Positions 7,706 to 31,957 of a stretch of DNA of 41,891 bases are shown here, piece after piece. Position 1 is the first letter of the stretch. Every line of letters starts with the position of its first letter. A program made the position numbers and the translations under genes. Under the pieces are notes generated by a model. That model was given only the letters and a program-made list of their open reading frames with translations, had not been told where the DNA came from and searched no databases. This DNA comes from a virus: positions 1-41,891 of the IMG/VR virus record IMGVR_UViG_3300046451_000396. The stretch is one strand, 5' to 3'.

Positions 7706-7719
7706 CAATGGAGAAAACT

Positions 7720-7989
7720 ATGTCGAAAAAAGAAACTAAAAAAGACCCTGTTATTAATGAAATGAATGCGGATGTTCTTTTAGAAGAATGTAAGGGAACC
7801 ATGCAAAATTGTATAATTACAGGGGTGGATGAAACAGGGAATGTAATTGTTCGTAGTTCTGTTTCCAGCCTTCCTTTTATGCATTGGATGCTAAACCGCT
7901 CAGTGTTTGAACTGGGCCTTTTTGAGAAGCAAAATGTAGCCGCTCAAAATGAAAAAGCCCCTGAGTCAGAAGTTGACCCAAAGGCTTAA
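7720..7989 (+). CDS. conserved small protein of unknown function
   Basis: An 89-residue protein; the start at 7720 is preceded by GGAG at 7710-7713. The N-terminus is lysine-rich (MSKKETKKDP) and is followed by a compact predicted beta/alpha region with NCIITGVDETGNVIVRSS and LPFMHWMLNRSVFELGL. Similar short proteins sit near MazG and RNR genes in marine phages, but I cannot name a function. The coding end overlaps the -35 box of the promoter at 7973-8001. It is the last plus-strand gene before the transcription switch. Confidence 0.75.
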   Translation: MSKKETKKDPVINEMNADVLLEECKGTMQNCIITGVDETGNVIVRSSVSSLPFMHWMLNRSVFELGLFEKQNVAAQNEKAPESEVDPKA

Positions 7990-8001
7990 ATTTAGTATAA
8001 T
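7973..8001 (+). promoter_or_regulatory. strong sigma70-like promoter for the 8008 RNA
   Basis: TTGACC at 7973-7978 (5/6) and a perfect TATAAT at 7996-8001 are separated by 17 bp. The predicted start is about 8008, directly before GCCCGTT, the first strand of the RNA fold. This is the best promoter match in the window, and no protein-coding gene lies downstream on this strand before the genome switches direction. Confidence 0.8.
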
Positions 8002-8007
8002 GTATGT

Positions 8008-8078
8008 TGCCCGTTATAGCTAGTGGGTGGGCCCCTGTCTCCGTCTAACCAACGGGCTAATAGACAGGGGCCTTTTTA
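8008..8078 (+). ncRNA. candidate phage small RNA with H-type pseudoknot
   Basis: Two perfect helices interleave. S1 pairs GCCCGTT (8009-8015) with AACGGGC (8051-8057). S2 pairs GGCCCCTGTCT (8030-8040) with AGACAGGGGCC (8062-8072). The order S1a-S2a-S1b-S2b is an H-type pseudoknot with loops of 14, 10 and 4 nt. S2 is directly followed by TTTTT, so it doubles as the intrinsic terminator. A near-consensus promoter places the 5' end at S1a, giving a transcript of about 70 nt. No ORF or RBS is present. A competing small hairpin, CCGT/ACGG (8041-8044/8052-8055), could replace S1. I recognise no known RNA family. The promoter and helices are read from the sequence; that the RNA is stable and functional is inference. 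Confidence 0.6.
8030..8077 (+). terminator. strong intrinsic terminator (S2 helix plus T5)
   Basis: An 11-bp perfect GC-rich stem (8030-8040 with 8062-8072), a 21-nt loop, then TTTTT at 8073-8077. It ends both the plus-strand operon and the short transcript starting near 8008. Read on the minus strand the hairpin has no T-run, so it would not stop the converging late transcripts. Confidence 0.9.
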
Positions 8079-8085
8079 TTTCTAT

Positions 8086-8161
8086 GCCCTCTTAGCTCAG
8101 TTGGTAGAGCAACGCACTTGTAACGCGTAGGTCGTCAGTTCGAATCCGACAGAGGGCCCCA
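8086..8161 (+). tRNA. tRNA-Thr (anticodon UGU) with encoded CCA
   Basis: The cloverleaf reads directly. The acceptor is GCCCTCT/AGAGGGC, the D-arm GCTC/GAGC with AGTTGGTA, the anticodon arm ACGCA-CTTGTAA-CGCGT, and the T-arm GTCAG-TTCGAAT-CCGAC. The mature body is 8086-8158 and CCA is encoded at 8159-8161. Anticodon TGT reads ACA (Thr). Odd points are an A.C mismatch at the base of the anticodon loop (31.39), a second A.C in the T-stem (52.62), and C as discriminator base 73. It begins 13 nt after the T-run of the terminator, so its transcription must come from readthrough or processing. The convergent virion gene ends 2 nt further on. Confidence 0.9.
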
Positions 8162-8162
8162 T

Positions 8163-11100
8163 CTATTTTATAACGGCGTTTCCTAGAGCATCAATTGTTT
8201 GCTGAATCTCAGCTTTACCTTTTATCAGCCCTAATTCAGCTTCAGCTAATTGTAGAAAGAAATCTTCTTCGCTAGGCTCATTATCCTCAGAATAAATTCC
8301 TGAACGCAGTAACCATTGGCGTAGTAGCATAGCCCCATCTGGGTCAACTGCACCATCCTGTGTTGTTACTCGTTTAGCAACCTCTACAAAGTAATCTGGA
8401 TCAGCCATGAGTTTGTCTAGAACCCGCGCTGTATCAATAGGGTCAATCGTATTCATTATGACACCAGAAGAAAATGCTCGTACCCTAGCACCCAAGCGGC
8501 TTAGAACGCCGAGGGTCATAGTAACAGTACGATTAACCGCACCAATAGCCGCCTGAGCTTCCGCTGTACCTGAGCTTACTCCTACAGCTTTAGAATTACG
8601 GCTTCGTTGCACTAGGCCAGCTTCCTCAAGAATTCCTCTGAAAGCTATCATAACTAGAGGCTTATCTTTATATATCTCATCCCCGTACTGCAAAACCTGA
8701 CTGAGTTGATTTTCAGATTTATTTAGAGCCGCTAGGCCCACCATACGGTTACCACCAGCTTCACGAGTAGCAGATAGGAAGTTCTCTCGAATGTAACGAG
8801 AATACGCGGCCTGAACACCATCCATCACTAGAGGGTTACCCGTAGCCTGTGCTCTTGTTATAACATCTGTTAGAACACCTTGAGTTGTTCCGTCAGCGTT
8901 CACCCTTAAAGCATTAGGGTTACTAAACAAGGATTTGAATGACTCATACCCATTAATGTTAGGTACGCCCGCCGATTTAAAGAAAGCGTCTAATTCACGT
9001 TTAAATATCTTTTCTTCAGCATTTGAAGCCAAGTCTTGAGCATTTTTAAGCTGTGCTTCTAGCGCAGTCTTATCACCCTTTGCGGTCTTCAAAGTTCCTA
9101 AGAAATTATCTAACCTGTCGGCTTCCTGTGGGAAGTTACTTCGGATAATTGCCGAGTAATCTTGCAAGCTTGATCTAATATCAGAAATGTCTAAATTAGC
9201 TAATTTGGAAGGATCATCTACGCGATTAGAAATCTTAGTTAGTGTATCCCCAATAATGTAATCAACAACATCTGTAGCACTCTCTCCCGCCTCTGGGCGT
9301 TTGAGTAGGTCAACCATATTGCCAACAACTTCACGATTACGATTGCTTAGGCTATCAGTAACTAGGTTACGGGCTTCATCTAAAAACTTGGGGGTTTGTT
9401 TTCCCCGGGCTACTGTCTCACGGCGTAACCTACCTACATCTGTCAGTACAGATCCATCGTCCCAGTATTTAGCCCAATCGTTCTTAAAGTAGTTAAGAGC
9501 GTCTTTAGCGGCATCAACTGTAACATCATCGCCTGTCTCTTCGACAAACTTGATGGCGTCATCATCAATCCATCGCTTGAATTTTATGAGGGTCTGTGAC
9601 GCACCTTTTTCTGCCGCACTGGCATTCTGTGCAGTCATACGACCAATTGAATCTGATAAGCTAACTCGAACATCAGTAAATAATGTGCCGTAATCTAGGC
9701 CGTTTTTATCTGCCCATTTAGCCACACGTTCACGCATCTGTTCTTCAGTCTCACGAACCATCTTGCCATCTACTTCTCTAGTACCAAGCTTAACTTGGTT
9801 AAGAAGTTTTCCTAGCATACTATCACCGGGTAAGGCTGAAGCCGCGATGTCTAGTTGGTTAGGCTGTAGGCTTTGTAGTGTGCTGATCATATCATCAACA
9901 TCTACAGCACCACCTTTAACTAGGCCGAATAAGCGGTTCTTCTCTGCATCCATAACCTCACTAGCTTTAGCAAGATTATTTCTAATAGTGTCGGCTGATT
10001 GGTTTGCTCCCGCATTAATCTGGATTCCGAGAGAGCTCTCTAAGTCATTTACTTTAGAGATAATCCCTGCGTCACCCCTCTCAATTACGGCGGCTAAGGC
10101 TTCGTCTACTGACGCAATTTGGCTCTCTATATTGTACACCCGGGCACTGGACATGTTAACTTCATTCAAACCTGAAGCAACAATGTTGTCAGCGGATTTG
10201 TTTATGCCTGTCTGCCCACCTAGAGCGTTTTCTGTTTGACGTGTAATTCTCTCAAGCTCATTACTAGCCATCGATGTTTTAATAGTAGTTTCAGGAGCGT
10301 TTCCTGATTGTAGAACACCTTTTTTAAGGTTCTGAGCACGAAGTACTATAGACGAAGCCTTAGCAACATCACCAACATCAAGAGCACGTTCAAGTGCTGT
10401 CATAGTGTCTGCGGTGTATTTAATATCGTCCGCAAGACCTTCAGGCATTTCCTGCCATACTTGTTTGTTATCTTCTACAAGCTTAATAATTGCCTTACGG
10501 GCTTCTTCCATACTCTTTGGATCATCCGTAACACCAGTAAGCCTATCTAGGATCTCACGAGCTAGCATGTCTTCTTTGGCGGTTGGGCGGGCCATTGTTG
10601 CTAACGGCGCACCTGTGAGTGACCAAGCAAATCGGACACCCCACGATACCCCGGCTATGCCCTTTTCAAGAGTTTTACCTACCCCCATAGCTTCCATCAG
10701 GATGTTAGCTCGGTTAGCTAATACTTTTGCGTATTTTGGGTCTTCAGGATCATACTGAATACCTTTAAGCATTGGGAATACATCTTGCACCCCATCAAAC
10801 ATTGCGTTCTCACCAATAAAGAGGCTTCCGCCTTCTGTGCTAGTACCCGCTGTTGCACCTGCTTCAAAGGCTAAGAATTTAGCTAGAGTTTTCCCCTTAC
10901 CTGCATAGCTAATCATTTTCATTGCAAGCACCCCCGGCACCATCATAGATGTGCCTTCCATCAACAGCGCGTTTCCTATGCTGTCTCCCGGTTTTACTCT
11001 TGCAATATTGTCTTTTGCTTTACCTGTTAGGTTTAGATCTTTGGCTCCAAATATAGAAGCGGCCTGAAATTCTTTATCAGACATTTTCGCAATTTCTTCT

Positions 11101-27962: not shown

Positions 27963-29852
27963 TTATCGTCTTCCCGCAATACTGAATTCAAATACAACGC
28001 CCTGAATGCTATAAGGATCAAACTCCCCTAGCGTCACAAAGGTGAGCTGAGTGGCGTACCCAGAGCCCTGAATTGATGTGGTTACGATTGGTTTTTCATT
28101 ACCGCCGTAATTAATATTGACCCCACCATAATTAATATTTCTTCCCTTATACCGCACTGGTGCACCTTGTGATTCCTGTGCATACGCGGAAGGGCGGCTA
28201 ACGGTTGGGTCATCCCAATCGTAGTTGACCGCCATGTTTAGAGTAAAAGGGCCTTCTGCACGAACAAAAGTGTTCACTTTTCTCATTGTCTTACGAACTT
28301 CAGTGTCTCCAAAGTCGTAATAAGGAGTGGCGTAGATGGCTAGTATGTCGTTGCCATCAAATGTGTTGCCAAGTTCCTGTCTATAAATTTTACCATTAAA
28401 ATCGCCATGCAAAACAAGTTCTTGTCTATTTACATACGCAGATGCTGTCGCGCTGGCTCTGATGCCAATTAGTTCTCCGAATTCCCAACCTAGTCGTTGG
28501 TCAGCGGATCTAAGACCACCAATAAAACCATAACTATCTGTAGTAGCTGTATCCGCGTCTCCTACAAAATATCGTAATTGAGATTTGGATCTAATCACTA
28601 CACCTACAAGAGAATCTAAATCATAATCTTTAGGTAAATCTGTGAGTAGCTGTTGAATAGGCTTAGAAATTGTTTCTAATTCTACATCTCCGATTCTGGA
28701 AGTTCCGGCAACCGGTCTCAGGCCATCTGGGGCTAAAAATACCAGATCACCACCAATTTCAAGCACACTATCTCTAGCAATACATCCAACATTCGACGTT
28801 ACCTGATCTATAACAAATCCAGCGGCTACATCCGCCGTAATCTTTTTAATTCCGTTATCACCAAAAACAAACAAGTTATCTCGGAAGGGCTTAAACTGAA
28901 CAACGTCAAATCCTACGGATACTTGACCTGCGCCATTGGCAACAAGAAAGTCATACCATGCGTTAGGCGCGGAGTGAGCAATTGTAGCCTCAGTTAAAAC
29001 ATTACCACCAATAAACAAGTGGTTTTCAAAAACGCCTACAAGAGAAGGAGCCTCTAAACACTGGTTACCACCACCTGTCTGAGTGGAGTGGCCCCCTGCG
29101 GCGGGGCTTGTGCCCGCTCCAGCTACGGTTAGTTCTTCCCAGTGAGAGCCATCAAAAACAATGGCAGGGCCGCAACCGTCTACAAAACAAATATGGTTAC
29201 CATCACCAAAATTAAATGTTTCACTTCTAATCTTTGTTAGCTGACCCCCTAATATTGTTAGGGTTGACCGTCTAGCACTGTGGTCTAACGTGTATTTAGA
29301 ATACCCTGAACCAAATACATAACGGTAAAAACAATATTCGTTTGGATCAATTTCTATAACATCTGCCGCCGTAGCAGGAGTTACCAAAGTAATAGAAGCG
29401 CCGCCCAAAACCGCGTTTCCCGACACGGTAAAATCCGTAATTATTCCTAACTGTACACCATTTTTATAAACGTGTACATCAGCAACAAATGGAAGATCTA
29501 CTGTACGATTATTAGTATCTGCGCCTGCAAACACACTTTGTGCAAAGGTAGCTACAAAGCGAAACTTTTTAAGTTTACGAGCCGCTAAGACAATAGTTTC
29601 GTTTAAATTATCATCTTTAAAAATAGAGAGGGCTAAAATGCGCCCTTCGCAATCGTCTGGGTCAACTTCTTGATAAGTTGTGTCGTAGGGCTGAAAACCT
29701 TCAATGCGCCTATACCCACCATACAAGCTAACTTCGTAGTTAACTAAGCGGGTGGCCGACCCCGGGTTGTTCTCTGAGAGATCAAGATGGTTCTCATTTG
29801 AGTTCAGACCGCCGCCACATATAACTTTAAACGACTGAATGCGATCTGGCAT
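27963..29852 (-). CDS. tail tubular protein B / nozzle-like
   Basis: A 629-residue, beta-rich protein placed after the adaptor and before the main fibre, the slot of T7 gp12-type nozzle proteins. The N-terminus is MPDRIQSFKVICGGGLNSNE with NYEVSLYGGYRRIEGFQPYD near residue 40, a pattern seen in the nozzle proteins of HMO-2011-like phages. The middle carries repeated beta-propeller-like segments (LFIGGNVLT, NLFVFGDNGIKKI, LVFLAPDGLRPV). Start and stop touch both neighbours. The call rests on position plus recalled family likeness. Confidence 0.75.
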   Translation of the reverse strand: MPDRIQSFKVICGGGLNSNENHLDLSENNPGSATRLVNYEVSLYGGYRRIEGFQPYDTTYQEVDPDDCEGRILALSIFKDDNLNETIVLAARKLKKFRFVATFAQSVFAGADTNNRTVDLPFVADVHVYKNGVQLGIITDFTVSGNAVLGGASITLVTPATAADVIEIDPNEYCFYRYVFGSGYSKYTLDHSARRSTLTILGGQLTKIRSETFNFGDGNHICFVDGCGPAIVFDGSHWEELTVAGAGTSPAAGGHSTQTGGGNQCLEAPSLVGVFENHLFIGGNVLTEATIAHSAPNAWYDFLVANGAGQVSVGFDVVQFKPFRDNLFVFGDNGIKKITADVAAGFVIDQVTSNVGCIARDSVLEIGGDLVFLAPDGLRPVAGTSRIGDVELETISKPIQQLLTDLPKDYDLDSLVGVVIRSKSQLRYFVGDADTATTDSYGFIGGLRSADQRLGWEFGELIGIRASATASAYVNRQELVLHGDFNGKIYRQELGNTFDGNDILAIYATPYYDFGDTEVRKTMRKVNTFVRAEGPFTLNMAVNYDWDDPTVSRPSAYAQESQGAPVRYKGRNINYGGVNINYGGNEKPIVTTSIQGSGYATQLTFVTLGEFDPYSIQGVVFEFSIAGRR

Positions 29853-30565
29853 TAAATGGATAACCTATTAGATCGGGTGTCTACAGAAATACGAGTGTCT
29901 CTAATCGCCTCGTATTTATTCATTAGAATGCCTTGCATCTCTTTTACGCCTTGTTGAAATAACTGGGCGGAAATACCTGCGGATTCCATGTTGTCTCTAA
30001 ACATATACATTTGCATTAGAGCCCCTTCGATAATCACATTGTCGTAAGTATCTGGGACACGAGTTAAATCGCCGTAAGCGACTAAATCGTTGTGAGTTTG
30101 GTAATACCTAAACTTGATTGTATACGCTTGATCAGGTGATGGGGTTACGGCGTACCCGTTCCCAAATCCTTCAGCTACCATTGTAGGATTAGTCCTACCT
30201 GCGGCACCCGCGTTATCATCAAGATCTTTAAAATTTCTATAATAAGTGTCGCGATCAATAAATTTTAATTGGGTAGCTCGCACCCCAAGACTACTATTTG
30301 GCTGTAGTTGGAATGAGTTAAAGTCAGCTACTTTTAAATATTGAGGCCATGAATACTCTTCCTGACCTACTACTAAAAGCTGAGTGTGCTGTACTGCGTT
30401 AAACGGCCACTCGTATTCAGCTTGATTGATTTTTGCAATTGCGTTTTTAACTGCGTCTTTTGCCGTTGCCTGAACACCACGCACTGAAGGAAAATCAGCT
30501 TGAGCAATCTCAACCTCATTTAGTCTCCGTAGCAATTGGTTTGTTAGATCAAGGTATGTAGACAC
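29852..30565 (-). CDS. tail tubular protein A / head-tail adaptor
   Basis: A 237-residue protein immediately downstream of the capsid gene and before the nozzle, as T7 gp11. The helical N-terminus (TYLDLTNQLLRRLNEVEI), then EYEWPFN and QEEYSWPQYLKVADF, are typical of this adaptor family. The long C-terminal helices (VIIEGALMQMYMFRDNMESA) fit the ring-forming gp11 fold. Confidence comes from gene order and recognisable motifs. Confidence 0.8.
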   Translation of the reverse strand: MSTYLDLTNQLLRRLNEVEIAQADFPSVRGVQATAKDAVKNAIAKINQAEYEWPFNAVQHTQLLVVGQEEYSWPQYLKVADFNSFQLQPNSSLGVRATQLKFIDRDTYYRNFKDLDDNAGAAGRTNPTMVAEGFGNGYAVTPSPDQAYTIKFRYYQTHNDLVAYGDLTRVPDTYDNVIIEGALMQMYMFRDNMESAGISAQLFQQGVKEMQGILMNKYEAIRDTRISVDTRSNRLSI

Positions 30566-30589: not shown

Positions 30590-30605
30590 AAAAGGGGGCA
30601 CCCCC
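30590..30605 (-). terminator. probable terminator after the capsid gene
   Basis: On the minus strand GGGGGTGCCCCC is followed by TTTT (30593-30590). The stem is at most 4-5 bp with a tiny loop, and an additional GGGGGTGCTCTC just upstream could pair alternatively. Between the capsid and adaptor genes, a partial terminator would lower tail transcripts relative to capsid, as in T7. Weak to moderate. Confidence 0.45.
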
Positions 30606-30629
30606 ATAAAGAGAGCACCCCCCAATATT

Positions 30630-31688
30630 TTACGCTACGTTGTAGTTTGCAGTGAACAATGCTTCAGGACGCAAAATCTTACGACCATAAAGTTGCATAC
30701 CACGAACCTTGTCCGCGAATGTGCTTGGATCACGGAAAGACTCAGTTTTAGCAAGCTGTTGTGCAGTTGCTACCGCTGAATCGTGTCCTGCTACCATGAT
30801 GCCGAAGTTAGTTTCGGAACCTGTAGAAAGAGTTGTACCAGATCCAGTACCCACAAATGGAAGGTTGTTAGACTTATACACGCGGAAACCACGGATAAGG
30901 CCAGTACCTACACGACCATTGCGAATTTCCTCGCCACCGCCGAAGTCACGATCAACGAACTTAGATCCCTCGTCCATCAAGATTTCGTAGAATACCGGGT
31001 CAGCAACGAACCAGCGTCCTTCAGTGTCAACGTTAGCCTGATCCATCTGACGAGCAACGCGGTTAAGCATAGCTAGAGGAGATGTGATACCAGACGCGCC
31101 GCCACCAGCGGCTAGAGGGATTGAAGTTACTTCACCCGCAACACCCAAGTCAGCACCACTAAAATCAGTGATATCTAGCTTGTTACCTGCAAGCAATTCG
31201 TCCGCACCAGCAGTTGAATCAGCTTTTACACCGTTCGCGGCTGTACGACGAATCCAAGCGCCACTGCTATTCTTTTCCCAGCCAGCTAGGTAGCCAAGAA
31301 CTTCACCATCGAATTCGTCACGCAAACGATAAGCCGCACGGTCTGTTGCCAGATCCATGAAATTAACGTGTGAGTGAGCAACTTCGATATCATCCATTGC
31401 AAACTGGAAGTAGTTTGCCTGATCGACGATAAGTGAAAAATCAGCATCCGCGATTGCCTGAGTTGCCAATGCTGTACCACGCTGGTACGCACTAACCGTG
31501 ATTTCCGGTTCTTTGATAATACGAACGCTGTCACCATAGTTCGCGATTTCACCAAAATAATCGGTATTTGTTACATCTTCTACGATAGAAGATTTACGGA
31601 AGGTTTTCTGAACCTTCTGTGAGTAGATTACGGGGCTAAAATTACCGTTAGGTAAGTTAGTATGACCCCCTGCACTTGAAAAAGCCAT
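30630..31688 (-). CDS. major capsid protein
   Basis: A 352-residue protein. The start at 31688 is chosen because AAGGAG precedes it; an in-frame ATG at 31718 lies in the leader. It follows portal and scaffold and precedes the tail adaptor. Visible features of podoviral HK97-fold capsids are the N-arm (AGGHTNLPNGNFSPVIYSQ), an E-loop-like region (FGEIANYGDSVRI), a spine helix (HSHVNFMDLATDRAAYRLRD) and a P-domain with RGFRVYKSNNLP. It lies behind its own promoter and a roughly 270-nt structured leader, and a weak terminator follows, in keeping with the high expression a coat protein needs. Confidence 0.9.
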   Translation of the reverse strand: MAFSSAGGHTNLPNGNFSPVIYSQKVQKTFRKSSIVEDVTNTDYFGEIANYGDSVRIIKEPEITVSAYQRGTALATQAIADADFSLIVDQANYFQFAMDDIEVAHSHVNFMDLATDRAAYRLRDEFDGEVLGYLAGWEKNSSGAWIRRTAANGVKADSTAGADELLAGNKLDITDFSGADLGVAGEVTSIPLAAGGGASGITSPLAMLNRVARQMDQANVDTEGRWFVADPVFYEILMDEGSKFVDRDFGGGEEIRNGRVGTGLIRGFRVYKSNNLPFVGTGSGTTLSTGSETNFGIMVAGHDSAVATAQQLAKTESFRDPSTFADKVRGMQLYGRKILRPEALFTANYNVA

Positions 31689-31957
31689 AATATTCTCCTT
31701 GTTGAGTAGGCTAAACAATCGGACCTGTGTCCGAAATGAGGTTTAGTTGGTACTGAACAGAAACTTTACCGGGGCTAAGGGCTGATACTACTTGGGTAAC
31801 TTTGCACCTAATCCTGTACGAGATTAGTGGCAAGGGCCAAACGTTTCAGGTGTTCTTATCGATATATTCTGAAAGTTAATTTTTGGAGGTAGGCGTCTGG
31901 TGACGCGGCTCCCTGCACTTAGTACTCAATTAACTAATGTTAATTTTTCCTTTAGCT
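31689..31957 (-). promoter_or_regulatory. structured 5' leader of the capsid gene
   Basis: A roughly 270-nt non-coding stretch between promoter and capsid RBS on the minus strand. In transcript order the hairpins seen are ATTAAC/GTTAAT (within 31929-31944); GGAG-GCGTC/GACGC-CTCC (31885-31912); CTTTCAG-type arms around 31841-31877 (TTTCAG 31844-31849 with CTGAAA 31869-31874, extendable with one bulge); CACTAATC/GATTAGGTG with a bulge (31805-31829); and CGGAC-ACAG-GTCCG (31720-31733), 20 nt before the RBS. None has a following T-run, so these are not terminators. They may stabilise the mRNA or control translation or an unknown ligand response. Confidence 0.55.

Follow-up and report, generated by a model that had tools for sequence, protein, structure and literature searches.

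The window, by which the whole analysed stretch of DNA is meant, is a 41.9 kb phage fragment from IMG/VR. Genes for DNA polymerase A, endonuclease I, ribonucleotide reductase and MazG, together with a small ORF of the phrog_11040 family, are its early genes on the plus strand, and the late genes are located on the minus strand. The two groups converge at about 8.0-8.2 kb, and it is here, between the last early ORF and the first late ORF (ending at 8163), that a promoter, a 5' hairpin and an intrinsic terminator follow one another (Table 1). The preliminary description of this DNA had placed the promoter, the 11-bp terminator stem and the U tract correctly, and had also rightly noticed that they lie where early and late transcription meet.

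Table 1. Features at the junction of early and late genes in the window
Feature	Position	Strand	Remarks
Last early ORF, phrog_11040 family	7708-7989	+	Syntenic anchor just upstream of the candidate small RNA in most relatives
Terminator hairpin for convergent late transcripts	7955-7987	-	14 pairs; overlaps the -35 box of the promoter
Sigma-70-type promoter	7973-8001	+	TTGACC 7973-7978, 17-base spacer, TATAAT 7996-8001
5' hairpin H1	8009-8028	+	Stem GCCC (8009-8012) / GGGT (8025-8028); MFE fold
H1 loop GTTATAGCTAGT	8013-8024	+	In related genomes, complementary to ribosome binding sites of early genes
Putative antisense seed core AGCTAGTG	8018-8025	+	Within the H1 region
Intrinsic terminator stem, 11 pairs	8030-8072	+	GGCCCCTGTCT 8030-8040 with AGACAGGGGCC 8062-8072
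Inner hairpin within the terminator loop, CCGT-CTAACCA-ACGG	8041-8055	+	
U tract (T5), predicted end of the small RNA	8073-8077	+	RNA of about 70 bases in all
tRNA-Thr(TGT)	8086-8161	+	8 bases past the U tract

The promoter is the only 11-of-12 match to the sigma-70 type within the 40 kb scanned. The transcript presumably starts at about 8007-8009, directly at hairpin H1, and the intrinsic terminator at its end surely closes the early operon as well. With a promoter and a terminator of its own and no ORF between them, the element is by its sequence an independent transcription unit, and the earlier suggestion of a small-RNA gene of this kind is supported by 43 distinct sequences (18 of a form A and 25 of a form B) which keep the promoter, the 5' hairpin and the terminator at the early/late junction. 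With the covariance models of Rfam 15 at gathering score, the tRNA was the only match in the window, and permissive scans brought neither form near threshold. No publication describing a small RNA of these phages was found in the literature searched, to which subscription journals and preprints did not belong.

The tRNA gene behind the U tract was considered as a component of the small-RNA unit and rejected, because it is optional in the relatives and differs in type. It is an accessory of the junction, where relatives carry tRNA-Arg(ACG) or no tRNA at the same place; the position is a tRNA swap site, and no promoter belonging to the tRNA-Thr gene itself was seen. On the minus strand the hairpin that overlaps the promoter is the best terminator-like site in the first 20 kb, and its counterpart folds in six relatives. 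Another strong terminator-like hairpin of this strand (30593-30623, 13 pairs, 8 of them G-C) sits between the late genes 29852-30565 and 30630-31718. Late mRNA that reads as far as 7955-7987 would include the complete complement of the small RNA, and this complement might titrate the small RNA or block its promoter. Given such complete complementarity, the small RNA could be regarded as a cis-antisense RNA whose target is the convergent late mRNA at its 3' end. Overlap alone, however, makes any sequence complementary, and a cis-antisense role predicts neither the invariant loops nor the matches at distant early genes that are described below; we consider it extremely unlikely.

Related loci were gathered by means of MazG, the small ORF, a profile of the small ORF and a DNA pattern, and they come from a group of marine phages, represented by IMG/VR contigs and by the roseophages CRP-3, CRP-212 and CRP-235. 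Form A, to which the window belongs, has a loop with ..GCUAGU, and form B has a 5' hairpin with the invariant hexaloop UUGGUC, then the linker GUUAG and then a simple terminator. TTGAC is invariant (43/43 distinct relatives) and the -10 box follows at a spacing of 17 or 18 bases in nearly all of them, being strong in form B and in the sequences near the window and weak in about half of form A. The promoter persists even where the upstream ORF stops before it (L118, L119, L170-L189), hence protein coding does not explain its conservation. The element can also be said to be a unit of its own, since in two form-B contigs (L178:2669-2769 and L183:2637-2737) about 1 kb, which includes another ORF, separates it from the phrog_11040 ORF upstream.

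Pairing in H1 was counted on gap-free stems parsed by hand, the automatic alignment being one that misplaces drifting stems. In the 18 distinct sequences of form A all cells are paired (72/72), with two-sided changes among C-G, U-A, U-G, G-C, A-U and G-U, and in form B 98.6% of cells are paired, with two-sided changes in all 6 pairs and a covariation score of 1.061 against 0.294 in shuffles (0/500 shuffles). The terminator stem varies in sequence and retains its pairing in all form-A relatives, the inner hairpin shows a compensatory change in L104 (CGAT-CTAACCA-ATCG), and the CTAACCA of the terminator loop (8045-8051 in the window) is nearly invariant in form A. That the loops stay conserved while the stems drift suggests that the loops are the functional parts. 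A loose DNA-pattern scan of IMG/VR for form B returned mostly chance coding matches.

In the phages HMO-2011 and CRP-1 the same junction holds a plain bidirectional terminator only and the small RNA is absent. It might be argued from this, from the certain role of the terminator in ending early transcripts too, and from the position of TTGAC inside the minus-strand terminator and often inside the ORF, that the element is nothing but an early-operon terminator with an incidental promoter-like sequence, conserved on account of bidirectional termination and of the ORF end. Such an explanation accounts neither for invariant loops on drifting stems, nor for a -10 box at fixed spacing beyond the ORF end, nor for loops which match early-gene start sites and co-vary with them, and it is held to be very unlikely.

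The preliminary description had further proposed that the RNA is an H-type pseudoknot, in which GCCCGTT (8009-8015) pairs with AACGGGC (8051-8057) inside the terminator loop and alternates with the simple terminator. The 7-base complementarity does exist in the window and its four closest kin, in which the sequence is unchanged there, but these are the only 5 of the 18 distinct form-A sequences that keep all 7 pairs. The others keep 1-6, their substitutions break pairs, and compensatory changes in the two strands, whose absence the description itself had named as counter-evidence, are absent among the homologues; an H-type pseudoknot with both helices conserved in this manner is thus not what the relatives preserve. 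Both strands are already engaged, because H1 (GCCC with GGGT) and the inner hairpin, which closes the terminator loop, use them in the MFE fold. The 5' strand of the pseudoknot is the 5' strand of H1, and each half of the 7-base match is explained by another conserved helix. As to energy, the isolated pseudoknot helix (-10.9 kcal/mol before penalty) is matched by the non-pseudoknotted fold, with -5.3 kcal/mol for H1 and about -4.5 kcal/mol for the inner stem. The pseudoknot is scarcely credible in our opinion, and instead of a function as a structural switch the evidence favours base-pairing with early mRNAs of the phage.

The loops are complementary to the Shine-Dalgarno and start regions of genes of the GP88 family, the DUF932 family and a DnaB-like helicase (families assigned by Pfam), and of small ORFs. 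In an annotation-free search from which the element itself was excluded, the longest perfect complements genome-wide were found, in several genomes, just before the start codons of early genes: two of 14 bases in G002, 13 and 11 bases in G003, 15 and 11 in CRP-235, and 11 in each of CRP-3, G009 and CRP-212. Of the other form-A genomes, G006 has sites of 11 and 10 bases, and G005 has one of 10 bases which continues through the Shine-Dalgarno sequence. The best duplexes of the RNA with annotated start regions in CRP-3, CRP-212 and CRP-235 fall on a few early genes, and in form B the sequence CUAACU-GGAG-UGACCAA-AUG precedes 3-4 early genes per genome. The window contig ends before the target-gene region, and the pairing of its RNA was tested only through the close relative G004, which shares its seed and has two sites CACUAGCUA-ACG ahead of small ORFs; the duplexes of the window RNA with these sites reach -21.9 and -22.2 kcal/mol. 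Here as in the comparisons below, start sites were predicted ones and duplex energies were taken regardless of accessibility.

All these targets, that is the leftward early genes and the helicase gene, lie many kb from the RNA gene. In four form-A phages it is the H1 loop that matches the GP88 gene, in the form-B phage CRP-235 it is the linker, so that the two forms use different seeds on the same orthologues. Most form-A phages lack the helicase site. In HMO-2011 and CRP-1, which are without the RNA, the sites are absent from the start regions of the orthologues examined, including GP88 of HMO-2011. A DUF932 homologue of CRP-1 (L214, 5174-6004) is located in the left early operon before the integrase, unlike that of CRP-3, which is among the right-end early genes, and the helicase of G002 (contig L097, 20965-22177) is read in two overlapping frames of 260 and 149 aa, owing either to a frameshift or to a real split of the gene. 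For the form-A loop CUAACCA no phage target was found, as its start-region matches are weak and not shared among genomes. During this search TTGGTTAGA proved to be almost confined to the element itself in form-A genomes, and the loop may possibly contact a host RNA or protein.

Matches of 8 bases or more were seen in 35 start regions of 12 genomes, where shuffled RNAs lead one to expect 8.6. As far as duplex energy is concerned, form-B genomes consistently beat shuffles and most form-A genomes do so for the best site. Seed and site change together: the loop UUUUAGCUAGUGAA occurs with UUCACUAGCUAAAA, UCCUUUUGUAGUG with CACUACAAAAGGA, CUCCAAUAGCUAGUGA with UCACUAGCUAAAAUGGAG and AAGUUUAG with CUAAACUU. 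An initial swap test was biased, because the sites had been picked for matching, and in the fair version orthologues were taken by protein homology alone and the RNAs were exchanged among genomes. The mean duplex energy with own and swapped RNA was -22.6 and -13.0 for GP88 (n=5, P=0.0088, near the smallest possible value), -21.2 and -13.7 for DUF932 (n=8, P=0.0001), and -17.9 and -14.0 for the helicase (n=15, P=0.00025), where the effect is seen in form B only and the test within form A is null (P 0.59). Taken by itself, form A gives modest P values (0.044 for GP88, 0.084 for DUF932). None of the 12 control families, among them polymerase, primase, terminase, portal, coat, lysozyme and integrase, is significant over all genomes (P 0.08-0.98), and one, terL, reaches P 0.043 within form B. 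Complementarity to translation-initiation regions is present in these phages and co-varies in trans with the seed. Two further ideas were rejected: that form-A RNA acts as a sponge of the form-B RNAs of rival phages (CUAACCAA against UUGGU/GUUAG), the energies being no better than those of shuffles in 3/4, and that a strand bias of TGACCAA in late genes has a meaning of its own, as it is accounted for by gene content.

Taken together, the sequence comparisons make it highly probable that the element encodes a free-standing trans antisense RNA of about 70 bases which pairs with the ribosome binding sites of early mRNAs, most likely blocking their translation. A host-type promoter would start the RNA at H1 and the intrinsic terminator would finish it. 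The H1 loop in form A, or UUGGUC and GUUAG in form B, would then pair in trans with several early mRNAs around the Shine-Dalgarno sequence and the start codon, namely those of the GP88 and DUF932 families and of small early ORFs, joined in form B by that of the DnaB-like helicase; with the ribosome binding site covered, the translation of these early genes would be blocked. We infer production of the RNA, repression as the direction of its effect and the time of its action: because its loop pairs with the start sites and changes together with them, the small RNA probably switches early genes off, and it may hold back early and replication genes, be it in the late phase of infection or during lysogeny. 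The same RNA with the same pairing might instead activate or stabilise early mRNAs, since some small RNAs activate, or it might act chiefly on host mRNAs, and the CUAACCA of form A, for which no phage target was found, might have its partner in a host molecule or a protein. Nevertheless, the duplex covers the Shine-Dalgarno sequence and in many cases reaches up to the start codon or takes it in, which is the usual arrangement for repression, and the activating or host-directed variant appears rather unlikely.

Repression of the helicase and the early genes fits either a brake on early expression or a function in lysogeny. CRP-3 integrates into its host, at the host tRNA-Met (PMC6918029). Homologues of the CRP-3 integrase are present in form-A and form-B genomes; a search for prophage copies across 84,980 species of bacteria and archaea, made through the neighbouring ORF, found none. 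It is tentatively conceivable, though on balance doubtful, that we are dealing with an RNA-based immunity and lysogeny switch, in which the prophage RNA would silence the helicase and other early genes of its own phage and of superinfecting phages with a like seed, and in which the rapid change of seed and target sites together would set immunity groups. If translational repression by this RNA is true, one RNA repressing a whole early regulon as programmed by its sequence would be new. With its readable seed, its named targets and the seed/target variants that nature offers as a series, it would be a concrete regulator open to testing. It would also offer a route for the discovery of such RNAs, namely conserved loops on drifting stems combined with seed-target covariation within one phage genome.

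The RNA fits no Rfam family. Among the known systems it works most like the c4 RNA of phages P1 and P7, of which it is not a member and to which no sequence relation was found. The target of c4 RNA is the ant mRNA, which belongs to its own operon. It is an antisense RNA against ant, and its loops block the ribosome binding site (PMC12197685). Both are short phage RNAs whose loops pair in the neighbourhood of a phage gene's ribosome binding site and so prevent translation (in the present case presumably), and in both the differences between related phages set specificity. In contrast to c4, located in the same operon just upstream of a single ant target, the present RNA has its own promoter and terminator and lies far from several targets, the helicase included. 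OOP RNA of phage lambda and sar RNA of P22 are likewise phage small RNAs with their own promoter, which turn down a phage gene by pairing, but they are cis-encoded and fully overlap one target. Late transcripts would overlap the present RNA, yet its covariation-supported targets lie in trans, where it would pair over short stretches and with several genes. The junction terminators of HMO-2011 and CRP-1 share its genomic place and its role in termination, without promoter, seed or target sites. VpdS of phage VP882, PreS of lambda and 24B_1 of Phi24B are phage-encoded RNAs which act on phage or host mRNAs; VpdS and PreS depend on Hfq and have at least some of their targets among host genes, and 24B_1 is a processed RNA of 20 bases (PMC12197685). 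What distinguishes the present RNA from these three is that the targets found for it form the early regulon of the phage, with seed and targets co-varying across phages.
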